A stretch of DNA of 64,000 bases from Nonlabens sp. Ci31 (GTDB lineage: Bacteria > Bacteroidota > Bacteroidia > Flavobacteriales > Flavobacteriaceae). The notes below the pieces were generated by a model. The model was not told where the DNA came from and did no database searches. It worked only from the letters and a program-made list of their open reading frames with translations. The stretch covers positions 2,911,501 to 2,975,500 of the forward strand of contig NZ_CP043633.1 of assembly GCF_012974865.1 (NCBI RefSeq). The letters are read 5' to 3'. The position numbers and the translations under genes were made by a program. This document shows, piece after piece, positions 2,399 to 52,960 of the stretch (the first letter of the stretch is position 1; each line of letters begins with the position of its first letter).

Positions 2399-5300
2399 AT
2401 GGTTACAATTTCACACTTAAGCCAGAAAACAATCCTCTATGTTTTCACCTTATTTTTCTCTTCATTCCTTCTTGGACAGGTACCTATTTATAATGCCAAC
2501 TTTGGAAATTCAACAGGGGTTAATGCTTGGACCAATCAAAATAGTAGTGGACGCTCTTTTGTAAGAGGTAATACAGGAAATCATCCTGGTAGAACAGGAA
2601 ATTATCAATATTCGGGAATGTCGGGAAGTGATAGTTACGATGACGATACTAACGTATCTGTAACTTCACCAGTTATTGATTTGTCTGGTTATGATAAAAT
2701 GACATTGTCTTTAGATATTAGTCATTATACGGAGTCTAATTATGATGGAATGAACATAGAATTTACCAATGATGGTGGAGCTAACTGGCACCTGCTAGGA
2801 AAATATAATGGTGAAGCTACGAACTGGTATAATTCAAGTACTACAGGAGGGGTTTCAGTTATGCAGGGAGCATGGAGTGGAGATTCCAATGGATGGTTCA
2901 ATGCTTCCATGGATTTACCACCACAAGCATTTGATAACCAAAACAGCGTGCAATTTAGAGTTAATTTTGGAAGTAATGGTTCTAACAGAGATGTAGGTGT
3001 AGCATTTGATACTTTCAGAATTGTTGGATTTGCTCAGCAGGTTAAAAACTATATTACTTGTGGTACTGGTATTTATGACCGTCTAGAACTCTGGTTGAAT
3101 ACAGAAACGCTAGCGCTTGCGGGACGGAATAATGGAGATCGAGTGAGTGAGTGGGAAAATACTTCAGCATTACTTCCCGGGTCCAATATCAGTCCAGATT
3201 GGACTAATGCTAAGTCTTCTGGTTCAGAAAGACCCACTTATCATGACAACTCAACAAACAATGTTAATTTTAATCCCGTAGTTTCTTTTGACGGATCTAA
3301 TGCTATGTTTGGTAGGTCGGGCTTTTACAGTGAAGATTTATATATCGTGATTAACCCTACACTGACTATATCTGCTTCTCGTCCTACAGAGGATGTATTT
3401 TTAGGAGATGATTATGTAACCGATGGAAGAAATCAAGATGTAACAGGTATTTCTATCAATAACACTTCTGCCAGATATGGTTCTTCTCCAGACATTGTGG
3501 CTTATAATCAAGGAGCTCAAAGTGATTATGGTAAAGCCATTGTTCACCCTACGTTGGTGTATGATCGTCCAGTAATTTTTAATGCACGACTCAATGATGC
3601 TGGTAATGGTATGGATTTATATTTAGATGGTATAGATTTAGGGGTTACACTGGATCCGTCTTTGACTGAAGAAGCCAACCTTTCCACATTTAAAGATATT
3701 TTAAACTCCAAGTATTGGTTGGGAAGATCCGAGTTTTTTGGACCTAGTTTTACCGGTGATTTTTTGGAGGTGATGTCCTTTTCACAGCGCAAAAGTGATG
3801 CAGATCGCAAACGTTTAGAATCTTATTTAGCGGTAAAATTTGGCATAACCCTAGGTCTTTTTGAGGTCACAGCAATAGGACTGCCGCATGTGCCTGGTGA
3901 GTATTTTGATTCTAATGGATTTGCTTTATGGAACACAACATTAGATCCTGGCTACACGTATAATGTAACAGGTATAGGTCGTGATGACTGTTCTTTATTG
4001 AATCAGAAACAAGCAAAAAGTGTGGATCCGTTTACTTTTATGACAGTAGGTTTAGGAGATATTTATGCTACTAACAGTGCTAATCCAGGTGTTTTTGAAG
4101 ATAGCGGTGATTTTTTAATGTGGGGGAGTACTCGTGCGTCACTTTCAGCACTTTCAGCTCCTCTCGAAGTAACCTTAGGCCCAAGTCTGGTAACGACCTT
4201 TACAGAGGTGACAGAGCGAACTTGGAAGTTTAAAGAGATTTCCCAAAATGCCAATGATATTCCAGAAGTGAAAATATCAGTATTAACAGCGGGGTTAATC
4301 TCATTACCGCCATTAACAGGGAATGACGCTTATGTGATGATACTAGCCGATGATGATAATTTTACCACAGCAGTGGAAACTATATTTCTGGAAACTGTAG
4401 GTGCCAATCAAGAAGCTTTCTATGATTTTGATGGGACACGTTATGTTAAATTTGGAGTTGCTCATGAAGTTATTGCCTCTAAGGATATCCTATTTGATGG
4501 TACCAACGATTATGTAGCTATGGATGACGAAGTGGGGTTAGGCGGAGATTACTCCATCTCTGCTTGGGTAAAAACCAATGGCTCCAATTCAAGTAACACT
4601 GATAAAACTATTGTTTCTAAAAGAGCAGCAGGTAATGATGGGTATCATTTCTATATAACAGATAGCAATCGCGTGGCAATGACCCATAACGGGACTTCTA
4701 CTATAGTTAGTAATACCGCTTTAAGCAATAATGTATGGAGGTATGTGACTTTTACCTATAGCGGTAGTACAGCAGTGCTTTATATAGATGGAATTGAAGA
4801 TATTACTCAGAATATTGCCAATACGGTTCCTAATGATGCTAAGTTTTGTATTGCTTCTCGATATGTTGATAAATATAACATCATCGATAACTTTTCAGGA
4901 AACTTGGATGAGATCAGGATTTTTTCCAGAGCTCTTAGTCAGGATCAGATCCGTTTTATGATGAATCAAGAAATTGAGATCGATGGAACTGGTATAAAAG
5001 GATCCATTATCCCAGAAACAGTTAGTAGAAATGATATTTCTGGATTGAATTGGAATAATGATCTCGAGGCCTATTTCAATATGAATACCTATATAGGAAC
5101 GCACCTTAACGATGCTTCAGGAAACGGTCATAGAGGTAGTTTGATCCAGCCAGATAGTTTTAGTATCAATGAGCAAACTGCGCCACTTCCTTATGTGTCT
5201 ACATCTGATGGAAACTGGAATAGCGTTAGCAGCTGGAGTAACGGTAACGCTATGTTTATCCCAGGTGCTACAAGAGTCATTAATGGAACTACTGTATCAA

Positions 5301-7045
5301 TAGACTGGAACATTGCAGTTGTAAATGAAAATATTACAGCAAATAATAAAGATTACACGCTATTAGGACTGGAAGTAGGGCCATTAGGAAATCTTTATAT
5401 GGAAAGCGATCATGGCCTTAGGATAACACATAACTTAAAATTAGACGGTACCATAGATCTTCAAGGAGAATCTCAATTGGTACAATCTACAGATAGCGAT
5501 TTGATCTCTTCTATAACAGGAAAGATTGAAATCGATCAACAAGGAACTTCTAGTCAATACGATTACAACTACTGGAGTTCACCAGTAAGTAGGATTACTA
5601 ACGGGACCAATAACAATGGATACACCATATCGGGAGTTCTTAAAGATGGAACTTTAGTAACCACTCCAAGAGACATACTATTTACTCCAACTTCAGTAAG
5701 AGATGGTGCTCCAGGAACAGTTAGCACACCTGCAACTATTTCAGGAAGATGGTTATGGAAATATGGAAATCTTACTAGCAATACGTATGCCAATTGGGAA
5801 TACGCAGGACCTACTAGCAACCAATTTGCTGGAGAAGCCTGGACAATGAAAGGAACAGGAGCATCAGGAGCAACACAGAATTATATCTTTGTAGGAAAGC
5901 CTAATAATGGAGCTATTGATCTAAATATCGACAACGGGAATGACTACTTGGTAGGAAACCCTTATCCAAGTGCCTTAGATGCTCATGAGTTTATCTCAGA
6001 TAACCCAGATACAGATGGAACTGTTTATTTTTGGGAACACTGGGGAGGAAACACACATATATTAAGAGACTATCAAGGTGGTTATGCTAGTTATAACTAC
6101 TCTGGCGGAGTAAGTAGTGCTACCATAGGGACTTCAAATCCAGATATCAATCAAGGAGGAATAGCAACAAAGCGACCAGAACAATTTATCCCAGTAGGTC
6201 AAGGTTTCTTTGTCACCGGAATCAATGATGGCGGTAGCATTAGATTTAGAAACGATCAGCGTCAGTTTAGAAAAGAGTCAGATGGACAAAGTTTATTTGT
6301 ATCTGCTCCAGGAAGCAATCCTATTTCAAGTATTGGAGATATCAATACAGTCAATGACCCACGTTCTAAAATCAGGTTGGGATTTGATTCTTCCAACTTA
6401 ATTCACAGACAGTTGTTGGTGACTATAGATGGCAACACAACATCGGGATTTGATAGAGCTTATGACGGAAGAATGCAGGAAGAGCAAATGGATGACATGG
6501 CTTGGTCGCTGCCTAATGAGAAACTTCAAATACAAGGAGTTCCTGCTATGGATGCTACCACAGAGTTGCCTTTATTTATAAAAGTAAATAACAACAGCAG
6601 GTTCAGCATCAAGATAGACGCTCTACGCAATGTGGCTCCTACACAAGAAATATATGTCAAAGACGCTTTATTAAACACCTATGTCAATATTATGAATGCT
6701 ACTTATACCAGCCCACAACTGGTTGCAGGAACTTATGAAGATCGTTTCTCTATTACCTTTTCAGATCCATCTACTTTAAGTAATGATAGTTTAGAAATAA
6801 GCGCTACCGACATTATTGTGTTTACACCTAATGATGCAGAAGAGTTACATATCAAGAGATCTGTAGAAATAGAAATCGAAGAGCTAACGATCATCAATAT
6901 GTTAGGACAACAGTTAAAAGTTTGGGATGTAGCCGACCAGAACGGAATCATTAGAATAGATACCTCTTCCATAGCAAGCGGTAACTACATTATAAAAATG
7001 AACACTAATTACGGTATTCAAACTAGAAAAGTGATCATCAAGTAA
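2399..7045 (+). CDS. LamG/T9SS giant surface protein, copy B (1548 aa)
   Basis: Secreted multidomain protein. Residues 1-27 form a signal peptide (hydrophobic core YVFTLFFSSFLLG, ending GQ). Residues ~28-215 look like a jelly-roll binding module, with Asn/Gly/Ser-rich strands and SLDISHYTESNYDGMNIEF. Residues ~216-600 are a conserved flavobacterial surface segment (LELWLNTETL, YLAVKFGITLG, IGRDDCSLLNQKQAKS). Residues ~696-850 form a LamG/concanavalin-like fold (DGTNDYVAMDDEV, SISAWVKT, WRYVTFTYSG, ASRYVDKYN, LDEIRIFSRALS). NYWSSPV lies near residue 1060. The last ~75 residues are a T9SS type A sorting tail ending TRKVIIK. ATG at 2399 gives an ideal signal peptide. From about the LamG domain to the stop the gene is nearly identical to copy C; the first ~690 residues differ. 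The exact ligand cannot be read from sequence. Confidence 0.9.
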   Translation: MVTISHLSQKTILYVFTLFFSSFLLGQVPIYNANFGNSTGVNAWTNQNSSGRSFVRGNTGNHPGRTGNYQYSGMSGSDSYDDDTNVSVTSPVIDLSGYDKMTLSLDISHYTESNYDGMNIEFTNDGGANWHLLGKYNGEATNWYNSSTTGGVSVMQGAWSGDSNGWFNASMDLPPQAFDNQNSVQFRVNFGSNGSNRDVGVAFDTFRIVGFAQQVKNYITCGTGIYDRLELWLNTETLALAGRNNGDRVSEWENTSALLPGSNISPDWTNAKSSGSERPTYHDNSTNNVNFNPVVSFDGSNAMFGRSGFYSEDLYIVINPTLTISASRPTEDVFLGDDYVTDGRNQDVTGISINNTSARYGSSPDIVAYNQGAQSDYGKAIVHPTLVYDRPVIFNARLNDAGNGMDLYLDGIDLGVTLDPSLTEEANLSTFKDILNSKYWLGRSEFFGPSFTGDFLEVMSFSQRKSDADRKRLESYLAVKFGITLGLFEVTAIGLPHVPGEYFDSNGFALWNTTLDPGYTYNVTGIGRDDCSLLNQKQAKSVDPFTFMTVGLGDIYATNSANPGVFEDSGDFLMWGSTRASLSALSAPLEVTLGPSLVTTFTEVTERTWKFKEISQNANDIPEVKISVLTAGLISLPPLTGNDAYVMILADDDNFTTAVETIFLETVGANQEAFYDFDGTRYVKFGVAHEVIASKDILFDGTNDYVAMDDEVGLGGDYSISAWVKTNGSNSSNTDKTIVSKRAAGNDGYHFYITDSNRVAMTHNGTSTIVSNTALSNNVWRYVTFTYSGSTAVLYIDGIEDITQNIANTVPNDAKFCIASRYVDKYNIIDNFSGNLDEIRIFSRALSQDQIRFMMNQEIEIDGTGIKGSIIPETVSRNDISGLNWNNDLEAYFNMNTYIGTHLNDASGNGHRGSLIQPDSFSINEQTAPLPYVSTSDGNWNSVSSWSNGNAMFIPGATRVINGTTVSIDWNIAVVNENITANNKDYTLLGLEVGPLGNLYMESDHGLRITHNLKLDGTIDLQGESQLVQSTDSDLISSITGKIEIDQQGTSSQYDYNYWSSPVSRITNGTNNNGYTISGVLKDGTLVTTPRDILFTPTSVRDGAPGTVSTPATISGRWLWKYGNLTSNTYANWEYAGPTSNQFAGEAWTMKGTGASGATQNYIFVGKPNNGAIDLNIDNGNDYLVGNPYPSALDAHEFISDNPDTDGTVYFWEHWGGNTHILRDYQGGYASYNYSGGVSSATIGTSNPDINQGGIATKRPEQFIPVGQGFFVTGINDGGSIRFRNDQRQFRKESDGQSLFVSAPGSNPISSIGDINTVNDPRSKIRLGFDSSNLIHRQLLVTIDGNTTSGFDRAYDGRMQEEQMDDMAWSLPNEKLQIQGVPAMDATTELPLFIKVNNNSRFSIKIDALRNVAPTQEIYVKDALLNTYVNIMNATYTSPQLVAGTYEDRFSITFSDPSTLSNDSLEISATDIIVFTPNDAEELHIKRSVEIEIEELTIINMLGQQLKVWDVADQNGIIRIDTSSIASGNYIIKMNTNYGIQTRKVIIK

Positions 7046-7451
7046 AAAGTGATTCACTTATTATAATTACAACAGTCTGTTTCCTCTAGTAAACAGGCTG
7101 TTGTATTATCTCAAATTAAGATGAATTAAATAAGTAATACTACTGGTGTAGTTCATCGATAATCTCTTTTCAGTTCATAAAGATTGACATTTGTTAATTG
7201 TTTTTAAACCATAGTTAATATATATGGGTGTATTTTCAATCGTTAATCGACGAGTTATGCAGGCTTTTTCACTCAATTTCGTTGAAATACATTCCTTTTT
7301 AGTGATTTAATATATTATTAACTAATGTTAGCTATTGAATTATAGCAGTTTATGTTATGCATGCATAATACTATTATGCTATGCATTGTACAAATTTTGG
7401 ATTTTATTTTTTCAAGCTATAATATTGCGTTTCTCATTCTAAACTCGAGAA
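7046..7451. other. Intergenic spacer between copies B and C
   Basis: No gene is supported. The first ~149 bp repeat the DNA after copy A. The rest is unique and AT-rich and probably holds the copy C promoter, though no consensus box is evident. Confidence 0.6.
7070..7103 (+). terminator. Hairpin after copy B
   Basis: A 13-bp stem, CAACAGTCTGTTT / AAACAGGCTGTTG, with one mismatch or wobble and an 8-base loop, 24 bp after the stop. It is the copy B version of the hairpin found after all three paralogs. Confidence 0.6.
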
Positions 7452-10400
7452 ATGATTACATTTTTACACTTGAACCAGAAAACAATCCTCTATGTTTTCA
7501 CTTTATTTTTCTCTTCATTCCTTTTTGGACAAGTCACTATTTATAATGCTGACTTTGAAAATAGTACAGGAGTTAATGCTTGGACTTATCAAAATAATGG
7601 AGGACTTTCATTTTTAAGAGGAACATCTGGAGATCATCCAGGTAATGGAGGAAGTTATCAATACTCCGGTAATCAGGGAGGTAGATATCAAAATGATACC
7701 GATGTTTCAGCAACATCTCTAGCCATTAATTTGTCTGGTTATGATAAAATGACATTGTCTTTAGATATTAGTCATTATACGGAGTCTAATTATGATGGAA
7801 TGAACATAGAGTTTACTAATGATGGTACCAACTGGTATACGTTGGGAAAAATAAATGATGAAGCTACGAACTGGTATAATTCAAGTACTACAGGAGGGGT
7901 TTCAGTTATGCAGGGAGCATGGAGTGATAATTCAGGAGGTTGGTTCAATGCTTCCATGGATTTACCACCACAAGCATTTGATAACCAAAACAGCGTGCAA
8001 TTTAGAGTTAATTTTGGAAGTGACGGTTCTAACAGAGATGTAGGTGTAGCTTTTGATAATGTAAGAATTGCTGGATATACTCAACAAGTCAAAAATTATT
8101 CCGATTGTGGATTAGGAATTGGCCAGAATTTAGAATTGTGGTTGAATGCTAGAACATTAGCCGGATTAAGCGATGGCGATCCAGTGAGTCAATGGACCAA
8201 TATTTCTTCCTTAAATCCAGCATCTAATATTAGTGCTGAATGGACCAGTGCTACTGCTTCTGGTACAGAAAGACCTATCTATTACGATAACTCAACTAAT
8301 AACGTCAATTATAATCCAGTAGTTTCTTTTGATGGAACCAAGCAAATGTTTGGTAAATCTGGTTTTTACAATAGGGATATATTTATCGTTATAAATCCTA
8401 CTGCTACCATTAGCGCAGCGCGTCCTACAGAAGATATTTTTCTAGGAGATGACTATGTTACGAACGCAGGAAGTCAAGATGTAACAGGTATTTCTATAAA
8501 TGATACTTCAGCGAGATATGGTTCTTATCCAGACATTGCTGCTTATAATCAAGGAGCTCAAACTTCTTATGGTAGGGCGATTGTACATCCAAATTTAGTT
8601 TATGATCGTCCAGTAATTTTTAATGCGCGTTTGAATGCAGCTGGAGATGGTATGGATTTATATCTTGATGGGGTAGATTTAGGTTTAACTCTTGATCCAG
8701 CGTTGATGAGAGAAGAAAATGCTGCCACGTTTAAAGATATTTTAAACTCTAGATACTGGTTGGGTAGATCGGAGTTTTTCGGTCCTAGTTTTACAGGAGA
8801 TATCTTGGAGATCATGTCTTTTTCAGAGCGTAAACCTGATGTGGACCGCCAGCGTTTAGAATCTTATCTAGCGGTAAAATTTGGCATAACTCTTGGTCTT
8901 TTCCCAGTTCCTGCGATCAGTTTACCACATGTCCCAGGTGCTTATTTTGACTCTAATGGAAATCCATTGTGGAACGCCTCAACGGATACTGGTTACACCT
9001 ATAATGTGGCAGGAATAGGCTACGATGACTGTTCTTTATTGAATCAGAAACAAGCAAAAAGTGTGGATCCGTTCACTTTTATCACCATTGGTTTAGGAGA
9101 TATTTATGCCACTAATAGTGCTAATCCTAGTACTTTTGAATCTAGTGGTGACTTTTTAATGTGGGGAAGTACACGATCAACTTTAACAGCACTTCCTGAC
9201 CCTTTAGAAGTAACCTTAGGCCCAAGTCTGGTAACGACCTTTACAGAGGTGACAGAGCGAACTTGGAAGTTTAAAGAGATTTCCCAAAATGCCAATGATA
9301 TTCCAGAAGTTAAGATTTCTGTATCAACTATTGGACTTACATCACTGCCACCACTAGTTGGAAACGATGCTTATGTCATGATAGTCTCCGATGATGAAAA
9401 TTTTACAACGGGTATTGAAACAAAATTCTTGAGAACCGTAGGTTCTAATCAAGAAGTTTTCTATGATTTTGATGGGACACGTTATGTTAAATTTGGAGTT
9501 GCTCATGAAGTTATTGCCTCTAAGGATATCCTATTTGATGGTACCAACGATTATGTAGCTATGGACGACGAAGTAGAGTTTAGTGGTGATTATTCGATAT
9601 CTGCTTGGGTAAAAACCAATGGTTCCAATTCAAGTAACACTGATAAAACTATTGTTTCTAAAAGAGCAGCAGGTAATGATGGGTATCATTTCTATATAAC
9701 AGATAGCAATCGCGTGGCAATGACCCATAACGGGACTTCTACTATAGTTAGTAATACCGCTCTAAGCAATAATGTATGGAGGTATGTGACTTTTACCTAT
9801 AGCGGTAGTACAGCAGTGCTTTATATAGATGGAATTGAAGATATTACTCAGAATATTGCCAATACGGTTCCTAATGATGCTAAGTTTTGTATTGCTTCTC
9901 GATATGTTGATAAATATAACATCATCGATAACTTTTCAGGAAACTTGGATGAGATCAGGATTTTTTCCAGAGCTCTTAGTCAGGATCAGATCCGTTTTAT
10001 GATGAATCAAGAAATTGAGATCGATGGAACTGGTATAAAAGGATCCATTATCCCAGAAACAGTTAGTAGAAATGATATTTCTGGATTGAATTGGAATAAT
10101 GATCTCGAGGCCTATTTCAATATGAATACCTATATAGGAACGCACCTTAACGATGCTTCAGGAAACGGTCATAGAGGTAGTTTGATCCAGCCAGATAGTT
10201 TTAGTATCAATGAGCAAACTGCGCCACTTCCTTATGTGTCTACATCTGATGGAAACTGGAATAGCGTTAGCAGCTGGAGTAACGGTAACGCTATGTTTAT
10301 CCCAGGTGCTACAAGAGTCATTAATGGAACTACTGTATCAATAGACTGGAACATTGCAGTTGTAAATGAAAATATTACAGCAAATAATAAAGATTACACG

Positions 10401-12086
10401 CTATTAGGACTGGAAGTAGGGCCATTAGGAAATCTTTATATGGAAAGCGATCATGGCCTTAGGATAACACATAACTTAAAATTAGACGGTACCATAGATC
10501 TTCAAGGAGAATCTCAATTGGTACAATCTACAGATAGCGATTTGATCTCTTCTATAACAGGAAAGATTGAAATCGATCAACAAGGAACTTCTAGTCAATA
10601 CGATTACAACTACTGGAGTTCACCAGTAAGTAGGATTACTAACGGGACCAATAACAATGGATACACCATATCGGGAGTTCTTAAAGATGGAACTTTAGTA
10701 ACCACTCCAAGAGACATACTATTTACTCCAACGTCAGTAAGAGATGGTGCTCCAGGAACAGTTAGCACACCTGCAACTATTTCAGGAAGATGGTTATGGA
10801 AATATGGAAATCTTACTAGCAATACGTATGCCAATTGGGAATACGCAGGACCTACTAGCAACCAATTTGCTGGAGAAGCCTGGACAATGAAAGGAACAGG
10901 AGCATCAGGAGCAACACAGAATTATATCTTTGTAGGAAAGCCTAATAATGGAGCTATTGATCTAAATATCGACAACGGGAATGACTACTTGGTAGGAAAC
11001 CCTTATCCAAGTGCCTTAGATGCTCATGAGTTTATCTCAGATAACCCAGATACAGATGGAACTGTTTATTTTTGGGAACACTGGGGAGGAAACACACATA
11101 TATTAAGAGACTATCAAGGTGGTTATGCTAGTTATAACTACTCTGGCGGAGTAGGTAGTGCTACCATAGGGACTTCAAATCCAGATATCAATCAAGGAGG
11201 AATAGCAACAAAGCGACCAGAACAATTTATCCCAGTAGGTCAAGGTTTCTTTGTCACCGGAATCAATGATGGCGGTAGCATTAGATTTAGAAACGATCAG
11301 CGTCAGTTTAGAAAAGAGTCAGATGGACAAAGTTTATTTGTATCTGCTCCAGGAAGCAATCCTATTTCAAGTATTGGAGATATCAATACAGTCAATGACC
11401 CACGTTCTAAAATCAGGTTGGGATTTGATTCTTCCAACTTAATTCACAGACAGTTGTTGGTGACTATAGATGGCAACACAACATCGGGATTTGATAGAGC
11501 TTATGACGGAAGAATGCAGGAAGAGCAAATGGATGACATGGCTTGGTCGCTGCCTAATGAGAAACTTCAAATACAAGGAGTTCCTGCTATGGATGCTACT
11601 ACAGAGCTGCCTTTATTTATAAAAGTAAATAACAACAGCAGGTTCAGCATCAAGATAGACGATCTACGCAATGTGGCTCCTACACAAGAAATATATGTCA
11701 AAGACGCTTTATTAAACACCTATGTCAATATTATGAATGCTATTTATACCAGCCCACAACTGGTTGCAGGAACTTATGAAGATCGTTTCTCTATTACCTT
11801 TTCAGATCCATCTACTTTAAGTAATGATAGTTTAGAAATAAGCGCTACCGACATTATTGTGTTTACACCTAATGATGCAGAAGAGTTACATATCAAGAGA
11901 TCTGTAGAAATAGAAATCGAAGAGCTAACGATCATCAATATGTTAGGACAACAGTTAAAAGTTTGGGATGTAGCCGACCAGAACGGAATCATTAGAATAG
12001 ATACCTCTTCCATAGCAAGCGGTAACTACATTATAAAAATGAACACTAATTACGGTATTCAAACTAGAAAAGTGATCATCAAGTAA
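7452..12086 (+). CDS. LamG/T9SS giant surface protein, copy C (1544 aa)
   Basis: Third paralog with the same architecture as copy B: signal peptide (residues 1-27, ending FLFGQ), N-terminal jelly-roll-like module, surface segment with YLAVKFGITLG and LNQKQAKS, LamG domain (~690-845), NYWSSPV, and a T9SS type A tail ending TRKVIIK. The N-terminal ~690 residues differ from copy B at many positions and by small indels (for example the loop NGGLSFLRGTSGDHPG). From nucleotide ~9470 onward the two genes are almost identical, with single differences such as KIDDLRN against KIDALRN and NAIYTS against NATYTS. This mosaic suggests gene conversion or recent unequal crossing-over. Function inferred as a surface adhesin or binding protein. 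Confidence 0.9.
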   Translation: MITFLHLNQKTILYVFTLFFSSFLFGQVTIYNADFENSTGVNAWTYQNNGGLSFLRGTSGDHPGNGGSYQYSGNQGGRYQNDTDVSATSLAINLSGYDKMTLSLDISHYTESNYDGMNIEFTNDGTNWYTLGKINDEATNWYNSSTTGGVSVMQGAWSDNSGGWFNASMDLPPQAFDNQNSVQFRVNFGSDGSNRDVGVAFDNVRIAGYTQQVKNYSDCGLGIGQNLELWLNARTLAGLSDGDPVSQWTNISSLNPASNISAEWTSATASGTERPIYYDNSTNNVNYNPVVSFDGTKQMFGKSGFYNRDIFIVINPTATISAARPTEDIFLGDDYVTNAGSQDVTGISINDTSARYGSYPDIAAYNQGAQTSYGRAIVHPNLVYDRPVIFNARLNAAGDGMDLYLDGVDLGLTLDPALMREENAATFKDILNSRYWLGRSEFFGPSFTGDILEIMSFSERKPDVDRQRLESYLAVKFGITLGLFPVPAISLPHVPGAYFDSNGNPLWNASTDTGYTYNVAGIGYDDCSLLNQKQAKSVDPFTFITIGLGDIYATNSANPSTFESSGDFLMWGSTRSTLTALPDPLEVTLGPSLVTTFTEVTERTWKFKEISQNANDIPEVKISVSTIGLTSLPPLVGNDAYVMIVSDDENFTTGIETKFLRTVGSNQEVFYDFDGTRYVKFGVAHEVIASKDILFDGTNDYVAMDDEVEFSGDYSISAWVKTNGSNSSNTDKTIVSKRAAGNDGYHFYITDSNRVAMTHNGTSTIVSNTALSNNVWRYVTFTYSGSTAVLYIDGIEDITQNIANTVPNDAKFCIASRYVDKYNIIDNFSGNLDEIRIFSRALSQDQIRFMMNQEIEIDGTGIKGSIIPETVSRNDISGLNWNNDLEAYFNMNTYIGTHLNDASGNGHRGSLIQPDSFSINEQTAPLPYVSTSDGNWNSVSSWSNGNAMFIPGATRVINGTTVSIDWNIAVVNENITANNKDYTLLGLEVGPLGNLYMESDHGLRITHNLKLDGTIDLQGESQLVQSTDSDLISSITGKIEIDQQGTSSQYDYNYWSSPVSRITNGTNNNGYTISGVLKDGTLVTTPRDILFTPTSVRDGAPGTVSTPATISGRWLWKYGNLTSNTYANWEYAGPTSNQFAGEAWTMKGTGASGATQNYIFVGKPNNGAIDLNIDNGNDYLVGNPYPSALDAHEFISDNPDTDGTVYFWEHWGGNTHILRDYQGGYASYNYSGGVGSATIGTSNPDINQGGIATKRPEQFIPVGQGFFVTGINDGGSIRFRNDQRQFRKESDGQSLFVSAPGSNPISSIGDINTVNDPRSKIRLGFDSSNLIHRQLLVTIDGNTTSGFDRAYDGRMQEEQMDDMAWSLPNEKLQIQGVPAMDATTELPLFIKVNNNSRFSIKIDDLRNVAPTQEIYVKDALLNTYVNIMNAIYTSPQLVAGTYEDRFSITFSDPSTLSNDSLEISATDIIVFTPNDAEELHIKRSVEIEIEELTIINMLGQQLKVWDVADQNGIIRIDTSSIASGNYIIKMNTNYGIQTRKVIIK

Positions 12087-19832: not shown

Positions 19833-21032
19833 TTAAAAGATGAGCAAATTTACGTCGCTGTAAGGTAAATTATACCATTCCCCTACTGATTTATTAGTAA
19901 CAATACCATGATAAAGGTAAATACCACACTTTAAACCCTTGTCCATGCGTATGGCATGCTCAATACCACCGTCATTTGCTATATTTAATATGTAAGGAGT
20001 AAAAATATTGCTTAAAGCGACACTAGCAGTTTTTGAATACCGAGCGGGAATATTCGGTACGCAATAATGAGTAATACCCAATTTGGTATAAGTAGGTTGG
20101 TCGTGACTAGTTATTTCACTAGTTTCAAAACAGCCCCCCATGTCTATACTGACATCTATAATTACAGAACCTTTTTTCATGTTCTCTACCATAGTTTGAG
20201 AGACTACTACAGGCGTTCTGTTTTCGCCTGTTAGCGCTCCTATTACTACATCACATCGCCTGAGAGCCTTAGACAGGTATTTAGGCTGTATAGTGGAAGT
20301 AAACAATTGCTGACTTACATTATTTTGTACGTTGCGCAATTTTGAAATAGAATTATCAAAAATTTTAACACTAGCACCAAGGCCTAAAGCTGTTCTAGCC
20401 GCAAATTCTCCCACGACACCAGCACCTAAAATAACAACGTCTACTGGTGGTACTCCAGTTATGTTACCGAATAGATGTCCGGTTCTGTTTTCGCCACTAG
20501 ATAATAGTTCGGCCGCAATTAGAACAGAGGCTACACCAGAAATTTCACTTAATGCATTAACAGCAGTAAATCTTCCTTCGTCATCTGTAATGAATTCATA
20601 AGCTAGAGCAGTAATTTTCTTTTCGGCTAGTTTATTGAAATAATTTTGATCTCTAGTTTTTAATTGTAAGGCAGATATTAAAACCGATTGTTGTTTAATC
20701 ATCTTAATTTCTTCTAATGATGGGGGTGCCACTTTAAGAATGGTGGGACACGAGAATACTTTTGCAGTATCGGTAGTTAATTCTGCACCGGCATTGTTAT
20801 AATCTTGATCGGTAAAATTGCTTGCTAGCCCAGCTCCTTTTTCTATTAAAATACGATGGCCATGAGCACATACCGCAGCAACAGCATCTGGAGTTAAACA
20901 AATACGTTTTTCTTGATGTTGAGTTTCCTTGGGAATACCGATAAACAACTCCTTCTTGGTTCTTGTAATTTCAAGACGTTCCTCTTGCGGGATTAACTGG
21001 TCTTTGGTAAAAGGAGTAGAGTAGGAGGACAT
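19833..21032 (-). CDS. ald: Alanine dehydrogenase
   Basis: 399 residues, NAD-dependent reversible deamination of L-alanine to pyruvate and ammonia. N-terminal catalytic domain: GIPKETQHQEKRICLTPDAV and GAGLASNFTDQDY. Rossmann fold: VVILGAGVVGEFAARTALGL, with Asp after the beta strand (KIFDNS) binding NAD. PNIPARYSKTASVALSN is typical of the Bacteroidota form. Second gene of a three-gene minus-strand operon (membrane protein, ald, DUF4258 protein). Confidence 0.94.
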   Translation of the reverse strand: MSSYSTPFTKDQLIPQEERLEITRTKKELFIGIPKETQHQEKRICLTPDAVAAVCAHGHRILIEKGAGLASNFTDQDYNNAGAELTTDTAKVFSCPTILKVAPPSLEEIKMIKQQSVLISALQLKTRDQNYFNKLAEKKITALAYEFITDDEGRFTAVNALSEISGVASVLIAAELLSSGENRTGHLFGNITGVPPVDVVILGAGVVGEFAARTALGLGASVKIFDNSISKLRNVQNNVSQQLFTSTIQPKYLSKALRRCDVVIGALTGENRTPVVVSQTMVENMKKGSVIIDVSIDMGGCFETSEITSHDQPTYTKLGITHYCVPNIPARYSKTASVALSNIFTPYILNIANDGGIEHAIRMDKGLKCGIYLYHGIVTNKSVGEWYNLPYSDVNLLIF

Positions 21033-21070: not shown

Positions 21071-21562
21071 TTATTTGAACCAACGATCACTAGGTTTTTT
21101 TATTCCATCTTCAATCTCACTGATGTCAATACCATGAATTTTATCAAAAATTTTGATTCTAGCGAGATAGGAAAGAGATAAGGATATAATGACAACGGGT
21201 ACAATGAAATACAATTCACCAGAATCAATGTAAGAAGTAGAAAAATCAAAAAGATTATACAACTGAAATGCGTATAAACTAATAGGGATAATTATGGTAT
21301 GGTACCACCAATGTTTACAAGTAAAAAACCAAATTAGCAATAAAATCAGAGGAACAATTTTTTGTACTAAAATCCATGAAGCCATTAAACGATTATCGGC
21401 AAATGACAAAGACAATCTCTTAAACATAGAGGTCTCCCATAACCAGTCAGGCAATGCTTCATAATAATAAAATGCGTAAGGAAGAATAGCCATGATAACC
21501 GCAATAGCACTACCTATGGCAATAGCATGTTTGCCCTTACTTGACTTATTTCTGGTGGCCAT
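21071..21562 (-). CDS. Four-helix membrane protein, unknown function
   Basis: 163 residues. Hydrophobic segments lie near residues 14-34, 65-80, 85-100 and 115-135. The N-terminus (TRNKSSKGKHA) is basic and the C-terminus (IEDGIKKPSDRWFK) is soluble. No family recognised. It sits 38 bp upstream of ald and is probably co-transcribed with it, so a transport or membrane role linked to alanine is possible but unproven. Confidence 0.75.
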   Translation of the reverse strand: MATRNKSSKGKHAIAIGSAIAVIMAILPYAFYYYEALPDWLWETSMFKRLSLSFADNRLMASWILVQKIVPLILLLIWFFTCKHWWYHTIIIPISLYAFQLYNLFDFSTSYIDSGELYFIVPVVIISLSLSYLARIKIFDKIHGIDISEIEDGIKKPSDRWFK

Positions 21563-21575: not shown

Positions 21576-21613
21576 TAAAAAACTCGCTGAAAGTAAATGT
21601 AGTGAGCTTTTTA
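21576..21613 (-). terminator. Possible terminator after the peptide array
   Basis: Read on the minus strand, a CTCACT / AGCGAG stem with wobble pairs flanked by A/T runs, 20 bp after the stop of the last peptide copy. Weak but well placed to end an array transcript. Confidence 0.4.
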
Positions 21614-21632: not shown

Positions 21633-21794
21633 TTATACAGTTACCGGCGGCTTGAATTTAGCGAGTAATTTTTTCTCGATTTTAGTTGTTTTGGTTTCTT
21701 TAGTTTTTTGTGGTTAGAATTGAACGGCAGTTCCAGCGATGGATACACTTAATATGCCTAAAAGAGATAAGGCTCTAAGAGACTTACTGTTCAT
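21633..21794 (-). pseudogene. Peptide array copy 0 (nonsense at codon 27)
   Basis: Most downstream and most diverged copy of the tandem peptide gene. The frame is conserved over 53 codons (MNSKSLRALSLL, then ending KFKPPVTV), but codon 27, CAA (Gln) in all other copies, is TAA at 21714-21716, exactly at the predicted start of the mature peptide. It could still make a 26-residue signal peptide only. The preceding spacer is 48 bp and lacks the leader ATG seen in the 225-bp units. Confidence 0.8.
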
Positions 21795-21842
21795 AACAAA
21801 ACATTTAAACAAGTTGTCGAGTAAGGTGTTTTTAAAATGATA

Positions 21843-22004
21843 TTATCCAGTTACCGGTGGCTTGAACTTAGCAAGTAATAGCTTTTCGATTTTGGTTGTC
21901 TTCGTTTCTTTAGTTTCTTGTGGTTGAAACTGAACTGCTGCTCCTGCGATAGAAACGCTGAATATGGCTAAAAGGGCTAGTGCTTTAAGTGACTTGTTTT
22001 TCAT
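21843..22004 (-). CDS. Array secreted peptide, copy 1
   Basis: 53-residue peptide of unknown family. Residues 1-22 form a signal peptide: MKNKSLKALALLAIF is basic then hydrophobic, followed by SVSIAGA with an A-x-A-type cleavage site. The remaining ~30 residues, VQFQPQETKETKTTKIEK then LLLAKFKPPVTG, are Lys-rich and amphipathic. I chose the start MKNK because the edge copies (0, 10, 11) begin there and it puts the signal peptide at the N-terminus. An in-frame ATG 57 bp upstream (MDTDYQKN) would add a 19-residue leader. Confidence 0.75.
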   Translation of the reverse strand: MKNKSLKALALLAIFSVSIAGAAVQFQPQETKETKTTKIEKLLLAKFKPPVTG

Positions 22005-22067
22005 AATAGGTGTTTTAAAAGAGGTAGTGTGTAGGGTGTTTTTTTGATAATCGGTATCCATAATATT

Positions 22068-22229
22068 TTATCCAGTTACCGGTGGCTTGAACTTAGCAAG
22101 TAATAGCTTTTCGATTTTGGTTGTCTTCGTTTCCTTAGTTTCTTGTGGTTGAAACTGAACTGCTGCTCCTGCGATAGAAACGCTGAATATGGCTAAAAGG
22201 GCCAATGCTTTAAGTGACTTGTTTTTCAT
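22068..22229 (-). CDS. Array secreted peptide, copy 2
   Basis: Same 53-residue protein as copy 1. DNA differences from copy 1 are synonymous, for example GCATTGGCC for GCACTAGCC in the Ala-Leu-Ala stretch and AAG for AAA in TKET. The spacer carries the NTLH version of the leader frame. Confidence 0.75.
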   Translation of the reverse strand: MKNKSLKALALLAIFSVSIAGAAVQFQPQETKETKTTKIEKLLLAKFKPPVTG

Positions 22230-22292
22230 AATAGGTGTTTTAAAAGAGGTAGTGTGTAGGGTGTTTTTTTGATAATCGGTATCCATAATATT

Positions 22293-22454
22293 TTATCCAG
22301 TTACCGGTGGCTTGAACTTAGCAAGTAATAGCTTTTCGATTTTGGTTGTCTTCGTTTCTTTAGTTTCTTGTGGTTGAAACTGAACTGCTGCTCCTGCGAT
22401 AGAAACGCTAAATATGGCTAAAAGGGCTAGTGCTTTAAGTGACTTGTTTTTCAT
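22293..22454 (-). CDS. Array secreted peptide, copy 3
   Basis: Same 53-residue protein as copy 1. It has the synonymous TTT for TTC in AIFS and the NSLH version of the upstream leader frame. Confidence 0.75.
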   Translation of the reverse strand: MKNKSLKALALLAIFSVSIAGAAVQFQPQETKETKTTKIEKLLLAKFKPPVTG

Positions 22455-22517
22455 AATAGGTGTTTTAAAAGAGGTAGTGTGTAGGGAGTTTTTTTGATAA
22501 TCGGTATCCATAATATT

Positions 22518-22679
22518 TTATCCAGTTACCGGTGGCTTGAACTTAGCAAGTAATAGCTTTTCGATTTTGGTTGTCTTCGTTTCTTTAGTTTCTTGTGGTT
22601 GAAACTGAACTGCTGCTCCTGCGATAGAAACGCTGAATATGGCTAAAAGGGCTAGTGCTTTAAGTGACTTGTTTTTCAT
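22518..22679 (-). CDS. Array secreted peptide, copy 4
   Basis: Same 53-residue protein and essentially the same DNA as copy 1, with the NTLH leader frame. Confidence 0.75.
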   Translation of the reverse strand: MKNKSLKALALLAIFSVSIAGAAVQFQPQETKETKTTKIEKLLLAKFKPPVTG

Positions 22680-22742
22680 AATAGGTGTTTTAAAAGAGGT
22701 AGTGTGTAGGGTGTTTTTTTGATAATCGGTATCCATAATATT

Positions 22743-22904
22743 TTATCCAGTTATCGGTGGCTTGAACTTAGCAAGTAATAGCTTTTCGATTTTGGTTGTC
22801 TTCGTTTCTTTAGTTTCTTGTGGTTGAAACTGAACAGCTGCTCCTGCGATAGAAACGCTAAATATGGCTAAAAGGGCTAGTGCTTTAAGTGACTTATTTT
22901 TCAT
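22743..22904 (-). CDS. Array secreted peptide, copy 5 (PPITG variant)
   Basis: 53 residues. The only unit with a C-terminal replacement (PPITG for PPVTG, GTA to ATA). Also has synonymous changes at GCT for GCA (Ala), TTT for TTC (Phe) and AAT for AAC (Asn). Confidence 0.75.
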   Translation of the reverse strand: MKNKSLKALALLAIFSVSIAGAAVQFQPQETKETKTTKIEKLLLAKFKPPITG

Positions 22905-22967
22905 AATAGGTGTTTTAAAAGAGGTAGTGTGTAGGGAGTTTTTTTGATAATCGGTATCCATAATATT

Positions 22968-23129
22968 TTATCCAGTTACCGGTGGCTTGAACTTAGCAAG
23001 TAATAGCTTTTCGATTTTGGTTGTCTTCGTTTCTTTAGTTTCTTGTGGTTGAAACTGAACTGCTGCTCCTGCGATAGAAACGCTAAATATGGCTAAAAGG
23101 GCTAGTGCTTTAAGTGACTTGTTTTTCAT
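22968..23129 (-). CDS. Array secreted peptide, copy 6
   Basis: Same 53-residue protein as copy 1. Shares the synonymous TTT in AIFS and the NSLH leader frame with copies 3 and 5. Confidence 0.75.
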   Translation of the reverse strand: MKNKSLKALALLAIFSVSIAGAAVQFQPQETKETKTTKIEKLLLAKFKPPVTG

Positions 23130-23192
23130 AATAGGTGTTTTAAAAGAGGTAGTGTGTAGGGAGTTTTTTTGATAATCGGTATCCATAATATT

Positions 23193-23354
23193 TTATCCAG
23201 TTACCGGTGGCTTGAACTTAGCAAGTAATAGCTTTTCGATTTTGGTTGTCTTCGTTTCCTTAGTTTCTTGTGGTTGAAACTGAACTGCTGCTCCTGCGAT
23301 AGAAACGCTGAATATGGCTAAAAGGGCTAGTGCTTTAAGTGACTTGTTTTTCAT
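23193..23354 (-). CDS. Array secreted peptide, copy 7
   Basis: Same 53-residue protein as copy 1. Carries the AAG codon in TKET like copy 2, but the NSLH leader frame, so variants are reassorted between units. Confidence 0.75.
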   Translation of the reverse strand: MKNKSLKALALLAIFSVSIAGAAVQFQPQETKETKTTKIEKLLLAKFKPPVTG

Positions 23355-23417
23355 AATAGGTGTTTTAAAAGAGGTAGTGTGTAGGGAGTTTTTTTGATAA
23401 TCGGTATCCATAATATT

Positions 23418-23579
23418 TTATCCAGTTACTGGTGGCTTGAACTTAGCAAGTAATAGCTTTTCGATTTTGGTTGTCTTCGTTTCTTTAGTTTCTTGTGGTT
23501 GAAACTGAACTGCTGCTCCTGCGATAGAAACGCTGAATATGGCTAAAAGGGCTAGTGCTTTAAGTGACTTGTTTTTCAT
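23418..23579 (-). CDS. Array secreted peptide, copy 8
   Basis: Same 53-residue protein as copy 1, with the synonymous CCA for CCG in PPVTG and the NSLH leader frame. Confidence 0.75.
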   Translation of the reverse strand: MKNKSLKALALLAIFSVSIAGAAVQFQPQETKETKTTKIEKLLLAKFKPPVTG

Positions 23580-23642
23580 AATAGGTGTTTTAAAAGAGGT
23601 AGTGTGTAGGGAGTTTTTTTGATAATCGGTATCCATAATATT

Positions 23643-23804
23643 TTATCCAGTTACCGGTGGCTTGAACTTAGCAAGTAATAGCTTTTCGATTTTGGTTGTC
23701 TTCGTTTCTTTAGTTTCTTGTGGTTGAAACTGAACTGCTGCTCCTGCGATAGAAACGCTGAATATGGCTAAAAGGGCTAATGCTTTAAGTGACTTGTTTT
23801 TCAT
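23643..23804 (-). CDS. Array secreted peptide, copy 9
   Basis: Same 53-residue protein as copy 1, with the synonymous TTA for CTA in Ala-Leu-Ala and the NSLH leader frame. It is the last of the nine full 225-bp units. Confidence 0.75.
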   Translation of the reverse strand: MKNKSLKALALLAIFSVSIAGAAVQFQPQETKETKTTKIEKLLLAKFKPPVTG

Positions 23805-23867
23805 AATAGGTGTTTTAAAAGAGGTAGTGTGTAGGGAGTTTTTTTGATAATCGGTATCCATAATATT

Positions 23868-24029
23868 TTATCCAGTTACCGGTGGCTTGAACTTAGCAAG
23901 TAATAGCTTTTCGATTTTGGTTGTCTTCGTTTCTTTAGTTTCTTGTGGTTGAAACTGAACTACTGCTCCTGCGATAGAAACGCTGAATATGGCTAAAAGG
24001 GCTAGTGCTTTAAGTGACTTGTTGTTCAT
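23868..24029 (-). CDS. Array secreted peptide, copy 10 (edge copy)
   Basis: 53 residues, starting MNNKSLKALA and with GAVVQF for GAAVQF. Its upstream spacer (24030-24089) differs from the array spacer and has no MDTDYQKN frame, which supports MNNK/MKNK as the true start throughout the array. Confidence 0.75.
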   Translation of the reverse strand: MNNKSLKALALLAIFSVSIAGAVVQFQPQETKETKTTKIEKLLLAKFKPPVTG

Positions 24030-24089
24030 AAAATGTTATTTAAAAGAGTTAATGAGAGATGATTTTTATTATCTTAACCAACTTAACGT

Positions 24090-24242
24090 TCAACCAGTTA
24101 CAGGTGGCTTAAACTTAGCAAGTAATAGCTTGTCAATTTTAGTTGTTTTAGTTTCCTTTGGTTGAAACTGAATTGCTGCTCCTGCGATAGATACGCTAAA
24201 AATGGCTAAAAGAGCTAGTGCTTTAAGAGGCTTGTTGTTCAT
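24090..24242 (-). CDS. Array secreted peptide, copy 11 (most upstream)
   Basis: 50 residues: MNNKPLKALALL, GAAIQFQPKETKTTKIDK and LLLAKFKPPVTG. It lacks the QET repeat seen in the other copies (QPKETKTTK against QPQETKETKTTK) and uses TGA as stop. Being first in transcription order and most diverged at the upstream edge, it may be near the ancestral gene. The 147 bp between it and tsaE probably hold the array promoter; no clear consensus was found. Confidence 0.75.
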   Translation of the reverse strand: MNNKPLKALALLAIFSVSIAGAAIQFQPKETKTTKIDKLLLAKFKPPVTG

Positions 24243-24389
24243 AACGAAAGGTTTAAATTATTAACAAGACGAATCTAAATGCCTCATCGGTATAAACAAC
24301 AATTATGAAAAATTATTCGTTAAATAACTTGTAAATCAGACGTAAAAAATATAAAATCAATTGATAATTAACTAAAGATAAATAATAAC

Positions 24390-24803
24390 TTATTCAATCA
24401 ATTTTTCTAAAATCAAATTTCTAGTCTCTGAGCCTAGTATTTTTATTTTTATATATTGATAATCAGATAGAAAAGAAATTGACAGCTCCGGCCACTCGAT
24501 TAGACAAAGTGCGTCTTTTTCTAGATAATAATCAAAGCCAATGTCAAATAATTGATCATTTGTTTCTAATCTATAAAGGTCGAAATGTATAACATCGGTA
24601 GAATCACCTTTATACTCGTTAACAAGACTAAATGTTGGAGAATTCACATAGTCTTCTACCCCTAATTGCCTGCACATGGATTTTATTAATGTAGTTTTTC
24701 CTGCACCCATAGGTGCCTGGAACAAGATTACCTTAGATTCTAAGTTTTCTAGCAGCTTTTTTGCTACCATGTCAATTTCGTTAAGGGTATAGGTGATTTC
24801 CAT
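24390..24803 (-). CDS. tsaE: tRNA threonylcarbamoyladenosine biosynthesis ATPase
   Basis: 137 residues. P-loop ATPase of the TsaE (YjeE) family that drives the TsaB-TsaD complex in t6A37 modification of ANN-decoding tRNAs. Walker A is GAGKTTLIKSM; SPTFSLVNEY, HFDLYRL and LIEWPE are diagnostic. Its ATG overlaps the porX stop by one base (TAATG), so the two are translationally coupled. Confidence 0.95.
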   Translation of the reverse strand: MEITYTLNEIDMVAKKLLENLESKVILFQAPMGAGKTTLIKSMCRQLGVEDYVNSPTFSLVNEYKGDSTDVIHFDLYRLETNDQLFDIGFDYYLEKDALCLIEWPELSISFLSDYQYIKIKILGSETRNLILEKLIE

Positions 24804-26353
24804 TATCTAGGTTCAAAGATGGCAAATGGGATCAACATTTCTTCTAGGGAAACACCCCCATGTTGATAGGTGTTTCTAAAATAACTTACATAATGATTGT
24901 AGTTATTTGGATAAGCAAAAAACAAATCTCCTTTTGCAAAAATAAAACTACTGCTCATGTTTATTTTAGGTAGCTTGATCGTACTAGGATCTGTCGCCGC
25001 TAGAACATCTTTATCTTCATAGGATAAGCTGCGGCCTGTTTTATACCTTAAATTTAAACTGGTGTTTTTATCACCTATTACCTTACTTGGAGTAGTGACA
25101 TTAATGGTTCCATGATCAGTGGTTAAAACCAATTTGAATCCCAATTCTTGTCCGCGTTGTATAATATCTAATAATGGAGAATTCTTAAACCAACTTAAAG
25201 TTAATGACCTATAACTTTTATCGGTGCTTGCCAGCTCTTTAATGACTTCCATTTCAGTTTTAGAATGGGAGAGCATATCTACAAAATTGTAAACAACTAC
25301 AGTAAGGTCGTTGTCTTTTTGAGATTTAAAGTTATCAGCGAGTTTACGGCCGTTATTTTCATTAGTGATTTTGTGATATTGGTGATTAATATTAAGCCCA
25401 AGTCTTTTTAATTGAGCGGTTAAAAAGGCATTTTCATGCATGTTTTTTCCACCTTCCTCTGTATCATCGAGCCATAAGTCTGGATGACGCTTTTTCATAT
25501 CTTCTGGCATCAACCCAGAAAATATAGCATTTCTAGCGTACTGTGTAGCGGTAGGCAGTATGGAGCAATAGGTTTCCTCCTTAATTTTTTTGTAATGATT
25601 ATTGATCAAGTTCTCAAAAACTTTGAATTGATCATAACGCAAATTATCTACGACTATAAATAAAACTGGTTCCTTCTTTTTTAGGAGCGGCGCAACACGC
25701 TTCCTGAAAAGATCATGACTTAAGGTAGGATTACTTTCATGGCCATCAAACCAGTCGGGATAATTTTTTTCTATAAACTTACAGAATTGTTGATTTGCTT
25801 CGTTTTTTTGAGCAGTTAAGATTTCAAACATTCCCGAATCGTCAACATCCTCTAATTCAATTTCCCAGTAAATTAATTTTTGATAAAGTTGTACCCATTC
25901 TTCATAACTATTGATCATGGACATTTCCATCGCAATTTTGCGGAATTCCCGCTGGTAATCGCTAGTAGTTTTTTCATTGACTAACCTAGAGTGGTCTAAG
26001 TTTTTCTTTACAGCAAGAAGAATTTGATGAGGATTTACAGGTTTTATCAAGTAATCTGCAATCTTAGATCCTATAGCTTCTTCCATTATATACTCTTCCT
26101 CACTTTTAGTAATCATGATAACAGGAAGCTGTGCTTGTTTTTCCTTGATTTCATGTAAAGTTTCTAGACCTGTCAATCCAGGCATATTTTCGTCTAGAAA
26201 AATAAGGTCATATCTTGTTTCTTCAATAGCCTCTAATGCTTCTGAACCACTAATTCGCGTGTCTATGGAATAGCCTTTATTCTCAAGAAAAATAATGTGA
26301 GGCTTTAATAAATCCACTTCATCATCTACCCATAGTATTTTGATCTCTGCCAT
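24803..26353 (-). CDS. porX: PorX-type response regulator with PglZ phosphatase domain
   Basis: 516 residues. Receiver domain (1-120) with the acidic pair DD at 10-11, phospho-acceptor D54 in LIFLDENMPG and K103 in LIKPVNP. A helical linker follows, then a PglZ/alkaline-phosphatase-like domain from ~200 to the end (VVDNLRYDQF, LPTATQYARNAIFSG, LTTDHGTINV, NTYQHGGVSLEEM). In Porphyromonas and Flavobacterium, PorX works with the PorY kinase to control T9SS. The giant LamG proteins at 1-12 kb are likely T9SS cargo. Divergent from the HD gene. Confidence 0.95.
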   Translation of the reverse strand: MAEIKILWVDDEVDLLKPHIIFLENKGYSIDTRISGSEALEAIEETRYDLIFLDENMPGLTGLETLHEIKEKQAQLPVIMITKSEEEYIMEEAIGSKIADYLIKPVNPHQILLAVKKNLDHSRLVNEKTTSDYQREFRKIAMEMSMINSYEEWVQLYQKLIYWEIELEDVDDSGMFEILTAQKNEANQQFCKFIEKNYPDWFDGHESNPTLSHDLFRKRVAPLLKKKEPVLFIVVDNLRYDQFKVFENLINNHYKKIKEETYCSILPTATQYARNAIFSGLMPEDMKKRHPDLWLDDTEEGGKNMHENAFLTAQLKRLGLNINHQYHKITNENNGRKLADNFKSQKDNDLTVVVYNFVDMLSHSKTEMEVIKELASTDKSYRSLTLSWFKNSPLLDIIQRGQELGFKLVLTTDHGTINVTTPSKVIGDKNTSLNLRYKTGRSLSYEDKDVLAATDPSTIKLPKINMSSSFIFAKGDLFFAYPNNYNHYVSYFRNTYQHGGVSLEEMLIPFAIFEPR

Positions 26354-52868: not shown

Positions 52869-52960
52869 AAAAAAATCCCCATTCACAAAGCAAATAAGGG
52901 ATTGTTTAATTGTAACAAAAGCATTTCCTAAGGGCAAAATAAATGCTGCCCTTTGGAAAA
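52869..52960 (+). repeat. 92-bp direct repeat, copy 1 (double hairpin)
   Basis: Begins 12 bp after the LpxR stop. Contains AATCCC...GGGATT and AGGGCA...TGCCCT inverted repeats, so it probably acts as a terminator. Copy 2 at 54356-54447 differs by one base (A at 52937, G at 54424). Confidence 0.9.

Follow-up and report, generated by a model that had tools for sequence, protein, structure and literature searches.

The receptors of RRNPPA (Rap-Phr) systems are intracellular and of the TPR type. Other precedents for small exported peptides include bacteriocin pairs, in which a small exported peptide is followed by a small multi-helix membrane immunity protein, the yeast alpha-factor, one precursor of which holds several copies of a short peptide, and the enterococcal sex pheromones, which are cut from lipoprotein precursors, the pheromone coming from the signal peptide. 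Phr propeptides of Bacillota carry 1-4 pheromone repeats, and repeated pheromones are reportedly produced and active (PMC11343458). Here we analyze a stretch of 64,000 nucleotides of Nonlabens sp. Ci31 (contig NZ_CP043633.1, positions 2,911,501 to 2,975,500; termed the window), which contains a tandem array of small peptide genes on the minus strand at 21633-24242, between tsaE and a membrane-protein gene that we call mem163. Our comparison of genomes shows that the array is an amplified gene for a putative propeptide and that this gene belongs to a two-gene unit, peptide plus mem163, whose position is fixed throughout the Flavobacteriaceae.

The nearest analogue that we can name is the Rap-Phr propeptide, from which the peptide described here appears to differ in receptor, phylum and anchoring. 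In both cases a partner gene accompanies the gene of a small exported propeptide, a putative one here. Phr propeptides hold repeats of the active peptide; in 7/190 of our loci it is a conserved C-terminal core, which may be the active part, that is repeated in frame. RRNPPA systems belong to Bacillota, and the main text of PMC11343458 contains neither 'bacteroid' nor 'gram-negative'; here, in contrast, the peptide may be lipid-anchored and whole-gene arrays of 11-12 intact copies occur. Moreover, no adjacent TPR-type receptor was found at our locus, the constant partner being a 4-helix membrane protein without a Pfam match above cut-off. Unlike bacteriocin and immunity pairs, the unit has a fixed locus, a conserved tail, acidic lipid-anchored forms and no library match. 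The yeast alpha-factor is similar in its multi-copy precursor and in that some units end in basic residues; our peptide, however, is bacterial, comes with no known processing enzyme and is single-copy in most members. The enterococcal pheromones share the small exported or lipoprotein precursor, but the part that is multiplied here is the C-terminus. Our literature searches returned no paper describing the peptide or the locus, and nothing that we recognized on peptide signalling in this phylum. To our knowledge, peptide signalling has hardly been described in Bacteroidota.

A peptide gene and its membrane partner at one locus

A search of the 3.74-Mb genome with the array peptide gave 12 matches, every one of them inside the array. 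Among 22 other Nonlabens genomes, 21 have a match (E 1e-4 or better), and outside the genus the best match has an E of 0.016. All 21 matches are found at the same locus, in the order tsaE, peptide, mem163, alanine dehydrogenase, a 124-aa gene and mostly proline dehydrogenase, the downstream order being read only where the contig or stretch reaches. The pN/pS of the Nonlabens peptides is 0.18, with 0.11 for the signal part and 0.23 for the mature part (uncorrected; 15 pairs of 6 sequences). The presence in 21/22 genomes, the identical place and the low pN/pS thus argue that the peptide is not a chance reading frame. The only Nonlabens genome without a peptide match (G014; G and L numbers are our labels for genomes and loci) also lacks a mem163 match, and its gap between tsaE and alanine dehydrogenase measures 81 bp. 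We took the Met of MKNKS/MNNKS as the start of the array peptides; a 72-aa open reading frame (ORF) was rejected because its extension is spacer sequence that is different in G009, the second Nonlabens genome with an array. In L038 (genome G001, 8099-8292) the single-copy peptide frame of the assembly carries a frameshift, and the near relative L048 is intact.

Relatives of mem163 were detected in 107/149 Flavobacteriaceae genomes sampled, nearly all from different genera; for one of the 107, G187, the sole match (L211) is of the paralogous kind described below. The gap between tsaE and mem163 almost always contains an ORF of 40-55 aa with a signal peptide or a lipobox and a tail like KIEKSRIKVPTHG. 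Removal of duplicates by DNA reduced 210 mem163 loci to 193 distinct ones (105 from the family genomes, 65 from further named genomes, 22 from Nonlabens including the window, and L297), and the peptide is present in 191 of them. These comprise 190 automatic picks, one of which was corrected by hand, and L161, the second locus of genome G191, which has a peptide and stands outside the pick set, so that features are counted over 190. Dokdonia species are among those that carry the unit. As a control, the ORF filter was applied to the gaps of the 181 testable loci (12/193 were not testable). A signal-bearing ORF was found in 177/181 sense gaps, compared to 25/181 antisense and 10/181 shuffled ones, and ORFs ending in PxxG in 104/181 sense versus 0/181 antisense gaps. 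Thus, individual picks may err, but the overall pattern does not.

Where mem163 is missing, the peptide gene is missing as well: it is absent in 19/19 mem163-less loci that have both tsaE and alanine dehydrogenase in view. These loci were drawn from 30 genomes chosen because mem163 had not been found in them, 16 of the 19 belonging to the family and the other 3 to further families of the same order; in the remaining loci of the 30, tsaE or alanine dehydrogenase is out of view or a partial mem163 is present (L174). Between the two flanking genes the 19 loci hold no ORF of at least 28 aa, except for a 155-157-aa gene in two of them, which by eye is acetyltransferase-like. At the level of sequence, peptide and mem163 therefore form a unit that is present and absent together, with two exceptions among the 193 loci. 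A Fisher value for co-occurrence was set aside because it takes no account of relatedness. This corrects the first-pass annotation, made from the window alone, which had assigned the peptide to an unknown family: it has relatives, and together with the 4-helix membrane protein it makes up a syntenic unit found throughout the Flavobacteriaceae.

A profile search retrieved 602 related proteins at an E of 0.01 or better; for the 120 of these that were listed, all source names shown are 'hypothetical' or 'uncharacterized' protein. In a separate list of 120 mem163 relatives, the source name 'glucan phosphoethanolaminetransferase' occurs once (P0059) and 'uncharacterized membrane protein' once. A class-wide profile search recovered mem163 in 1/295 genomes, the own one, and none outside the family; as at most 11 candidates per genome were scored, this is weak evidence of absence. 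Viral contigs, which were scanned for mem163 only, encode no relative of it.

Paralogs of mem163, with 24-30 % identity in the matched parts, occur at unrelated loci. In 13/17 fetched loci (L199-L211) the paralog, of ~172 aa, is paired with its own overlapping lipopeptide that has the same tail, e.g. MKKLMFILAILALAASCTPEALSTDEQQIDKDKYEVPPNG. These peptides are mostly 40 aa long and end in PPNG or PTNG; the ORF of L202 has 61 aa when counted from the first ATG. The four loci without a peptide (L212-L215) contain a broken gene, or mem-like genes that are larger or differently placed. An alignment of mem163 with nine of the paralogs shows 20 invariant residues, counting the start. Since paralogous loci have their own peptide, it is the pair itself that is conserved and not only its place.

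Arrays, in-frame repeats and gene overlap

The array of the window consists of 11 intact peptide genes and one with a premature stop (Table 1), and TRF reports a period of 225 with 10.7 copies. Its nine central units had been described as exact. They are indeed equal in length, but their sequences are not identical: the 162-bp gene has 7 alleles among nine units, with a mean identity of 98.5 % and a minimum of 95.7 %. The three diverged edge copies of the first-pass annotation are present too, but its count of twelve genes has to be lowered to 11 intact ones, as the last copy is broken by a TAA. Eight gene sites vary among the nine units, 7/8 of them synonymously, the remaining one being V51I; that substitutions are nearly all synonymous was thus seen correctly, and together with the pN/pS between Nonlabens species this speaks for the purifying selection that had been suggested.

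Table 1. Positions of the array, its flanking genes and putative signals, counted from the first nucleotide of the window
Feature	Position	Strand	Description
Response regulator with PglZ domain	24803..26353	-	Landmark; Pfam domains; presumably porX-like
tsaE	24390..24803	-	Landmark upstream; Pfam TsaE 5e-35
Promoter-like site	24270..24299	-	Flavobacterial type; TTG, 19 nt, TAGATTCG; before copy 1
Copy 1	24090..24242	-	Intact, 50 aa; diverged edge copy, first transcribed
Copy 2	23868..24029	-	Intact, 53 aa; edge copy
Copies 3-11	21843..23861	-	Nine units of 225 bp each; peptide of 53 aa, MKNKSLKALALLAIFSVSIAGAAVQFQPQETKETKTTKIEKLLLAKFKPPVTG, with V51I in one copy
Genes of copies 3-11	23643-23804, then each 225 bp down to 21843-22004	-	
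Copy 12	21633..21794	-	Degenerate, one in-frame TAA
Terminator-like inverted repeat and T-run	21577..21612	-	Between array and mem163
mem163	21071..21562	-	163-aa 4-helix membrane protein
Alanine dehydrogenase	19833..21032	-	Landmark downstream; Pfam

Across the genus the copy number is 1, 12 or 13, and 20/21 of the other Nonlabens loci are single. The exception is G009, whose 13 copies comprise 12 intact and 1 degenerate, the last copy being degenerate as in the window genome (G000). Among named members of the genus, Nonlabens sp. MB-3u-79 is an array species and N. dokdonensis a single-copy one. In a quick tree the two genomes are sisters (SH-aLRT 99), and their units measure 225 bp in G000 and 210 bp in G009. 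Units are 98.5 % identical among the nine of the window and 99.4 % among 11 of G009, versus 84.5 % between the two genomes, in line with the homogenisation proposed earlier. Given the sisterhood, the shared degenerate last copy and the greater likeness of units within than between species, the two arrays are most simply explained by a single origin followed by concerted evolution. The middle copies would stay similar through unequal crossing-over.

Amplification is found in 15/190 loci and takes two forms. Eight loci are gene arrays, in which the whole gene is multiplied: the window (11 intact, plus 1), G009 (12 intact, plus 1), G065 (6), Galbibacter pacificus (3), Joostella atrarenae (4), Galbibacter orientalis (3), Robertkochia sediminum (4) and L297 (at least 2, adjoining a stretch of N). 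Seven loci encode precursors with in-frame repeats, in which only the C-terminal core is multiplied: L060 (6, the units being FIDKFQKPPKHGFA-like), a Sinomicrobium metagenome-assembled genome (3), L152 (3), L154 (3), L155 (4), L156 (4) and Maribacter arenosus (2). On a quick tree of alanine dehydrogenase and mem163 (166 rows, 14 amplified) at least 8 changes between the single and the amplified state are needed, a count that does not separate gain from loss. For the window array itself, the dosage amplification proposed at first pass stands as the simplest reading.

In 134/190 loci the peptide gene contains the first ATG of mem163, 47-89 nt before its own end and always in the +1 frame; this overlap would couple the translation of both genes. 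Within it, amino-acid differences amount to 0.446 for mem163 and to 0.346 for the peptide, each read in its own frame (242 non-independent pairs). The overlap is absent from all amplified loci (0/15). A plain Fisher test of this association is significant, but the median p of independent pairs is 1, and relatedness can therefore explain it; that amplification occurs only without overlap is a pattern rather than a proven dependence. In Nonlabens, one subclade overlaps (except L056, in which no overlap was scored), whereas the other subclade, the one with arrays, does not.

Flavobacterial promoters follow the consensus TTG-N-TAnnTTTG, from which the promoter-like site before copy 1 deviates by one mismatch. 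Copy 1 of G009 is preceded by the same TAGATTCG box, with TTG 22 nt away, and the best promoter-like sites in the spacers between units carry 3-4 mismatches. The terminator-like repeat forms a clear hairpin in G009, whereas that of the window is imperfect and gives way to other pairings in the minimum-energy fold of the region. The single promoter-like site before copy 1, the spacers without a close match and the terminator-like repeat suggest that the array is likely transcribed as one polycistronic mRNA. In the array lineage of Nonlabens, which has no overlap and a terminator-like repeat between the genes, one promoter would then drive 11 intact peptide genes, and the dose of the peptide would go up relative to mem163.

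As for the rest of the window, scans for Rfam families and tRNAs found none. Positions 1-12086 hold three tandem ~5-kb copies encoding very large secreted proteins, with some 300-nt stretches 100 % identical; both complete copies encode a Laminin_G_3 domain together with a Por secretion tail slightly below cut-off, and the first copy is cut by the window start. A 92-nt sequence occurs at 52869-52960 and at 54356-54447 (99 % identity, 1487 bp apart) and is possibly a small mobile or regulatory element.

Features of the peptide, mem163 and a helix-turn-helix-like neighbour

The N-terminus of the window peptide, MKNKSLKALALLAIFSVSIAGA-AVQF, shows by eye a charged N-region, a hydrophobic core and an A-x-A, which are features of signal peptidase I substrates and agree with the secreted peptide of the first-pass annotation. 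The window copies contain no Cys and hence no lipobox, which a regular expression finds in 52/190 relatives; the split into lipid-anchored and other peptides, like the cleavage sites, was made by such expressions, and some members are miscalled. The most constant mature part is formed by the C-terminal ~12 residues, roughly [IV][DE]KxxIx[IV]PxxG, and between genera this short tail alone is constant. The window peptide has a pI of 9.7 and a net charge of +2.8. An antimicrobial or surface-active role, considered at first pass, is nevertheless not favoured, as the mature parts of the 52 lipid-anchored peptides average a net charge of -2.35 and 51/138 of the others are not cationic. The window peptide matches no Pfam or NCBIfam family above cut-off and nothing in PADLOC or PHROGs; a weak match to DUF4148 (Pfam, E 0.032), below cut-off, was set aside.

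An AF2 model of mem163 (58 sequences) has four long helices, with a pLDDT of 73 and a pTM of 0.57. Searches with mem163 found no Pfam or NCBIfam family above cut-off, nothing in PADLOC or PHROGs and, with its profile, no match among PDB sequences. Two weak matches were set aside, YWFCY (Pfam, E 0.029, below cut-off) for mem163 and the PADLOC '2TM effector' (E 0.015) for a 398-aa mem-like ORF. Conservation is 4.27 bits in the loop CKHWWYH and 3.60 bits in the tail FDKIHGIDISEIED, compared to 2.80 and 2.13 in the outside loops. We infer an N-in topology, which would place the most conserved parts of mem163 in the cytoplasm. The mem163 tail (HGIDISEIE in the window, HGIDLSEIE as family consensus) is similar to some peptide cores, for example GIDKSEV of L154; it would face the opposite membrane side from the peptide, so that topology speaks against a direct link.

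Some loci contain a gene for a helix-turn-helix (HTH)-like protein of 121-136 aa, which has a weak PHROG transcription-regulator match and is otherwise named by eye. In a search of 30 genomes, the 11 best matches to it (E 2e-20 or better) all adjoin mem-like genes, though 10/30 genomes were chosen for having the gene there and the query likewise came from such a place. In L142, L143, L147, L154, L163, L166, L106 and L089 an HTH-like gene faces or abuts mem-like genes (~200 or 400 aa) near the peptide locus, and L124 has a row of three HTH-like genes upstream of the peptide gene.

Readings of the unit

We favour, at about even confidence, the reading that propeptide and membrane partner form a regulatory or cell-to-cell signalling unit in which the dose of the peptide has been raised repeatedly. 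Signal peptidase I would cleave the peptide, which in other genera would be lipidated instead; the C-terminal tail of the peptide would be the ligand of mem163, and the regulatory or signalling output would arise on the cytoplasmic face of mem163. The constancy of the tail, the fact that the tail and not the anchor is multiplied, and the HTH-like neighbour favour such a function over a structural role. A wider version seems to us plausible only in a tentative way: a peptide communication native to Bacteroidota, with a soluble or lipidated ligand carrying the [IV][DE]KxxIx[IV]PxxG tail, a 4-helix receptor and, in some lineages, an HTH-like regulator, with the dose of the ligand tuned by whole-gene arrays or by repeats within the precursor, in lineages free of the overlap that would otherwise fix the ligand:receptor ratio.

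Several observations weigh against a signalling unit. Two loci from two Aestuariivivens species (L283, L287) have mem163 without a peptide gene before it. PxxG ends are rarer without overlap (23/56) than with it (87/134); the 23 indicate all the same that the overlap alone does not account for the tail, which has been changed in several lineages. In Nonlabens, PPVTG is replaced by altered tails, e.g. AKANGLL(G) or NRENLRWL, in L040, L048, L051, L015, L042, L050 and L052, changes that possibly reflect a shift in specificity. The HTH-like gene is present in 24/220 loci, in 0/23 of L169-L191 and in 0/3 Nonlabens genomes searched, and the 15 matches to it that are weaker (E 2e-14 and above) are at other places or of unchecked position, save one adjoining the G140 match. 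The C-tail motif of mem163 is not kept in the paralogs, which retain the WW part only, and the mem163 model gave low, scattered matches to PDB folds, none of them convincing. Apart from the genes already named, Pfam searches of the locus neighbours found nothing resembling a dedicated protease or exporter.

Alternatively, the peptide could be an abundant envelope component or a small subunit of a complex with mem163, amplification meeting a higher need. The overlap in 134/190 loci suggests fixed co-production, peptide and mem163 are co-inherited, and lipid-anchored forms occur in many genera (52/190, by regular expression). Such a structural or accessory subunit is nevertheless unlikely, since constancy between genera is limited to the short tail, in-frame repeats multiply this tail and not the anchor, and the amplified forms, being without overlap, have not kept a fixed 1:1 production.

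We consider it improbable that the peptide is bacteriocin-like and mem163 its small membrane immunity protein. A small peptide that is exported and encoded just before a 4-helix membrane protein fits such a pair, as does the cationic nature of the window peptide, but the unit stays at one fixed place across the family, its tail is conserved between genera and not diversifying, and its lipid-anchored members are acidic. The absence of PADLOC or PHROGs matches for both proteins, and of mem163 relatives on viral contigs, points the same way, although a missing library match does not exclude a bacteriocin or immunity family.

A further alternative concerns only the array, which might be neutral, a result of unequal crossing-over of a constrained gene whose dose is not selected. 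Degenerate edge copies in both G000 and G009 are compatible with this, and the 5-kb tandem repeat shows that tandem duplication takes place elsewhere in the window too. However, 11 and 12 intact frames have been kept, 7/8 intragenic differences are synonymous, and one gene has switched at least 8 times between the single and the multiple state, by two mechanisms, which makes a neutral array quite improbable. Finally, a leader peptide whose translation merely couples or attenuates that of mem163 would fit the +1 overlap in 134/190 loci but is very improbable, as 56/190 loci keep the peptide without overlap (for 7 of them the scanned stretch showed no ATG), such a role would gain nothing from arrays or in-frame repeats, the peptide frame has the lower amino-acid change within the overlap, and the signal peptide is conserved.

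Flavobacteriaceae are major degraders of marine algal matter. The pair of exported peptide and membrane partner described here appears to be unnamed so far, despite the partner being present in 107/149 of the family's genomes sampled. That the copy number of one gene has changed repeatedly, and by two mechanisms, amounts to a natural experiment on why cells multiply a peptide. Direct comparisons can draw on single-copy species, on species with in-frame repeats or with arrays, and on a genome that naturally lacks both genes.

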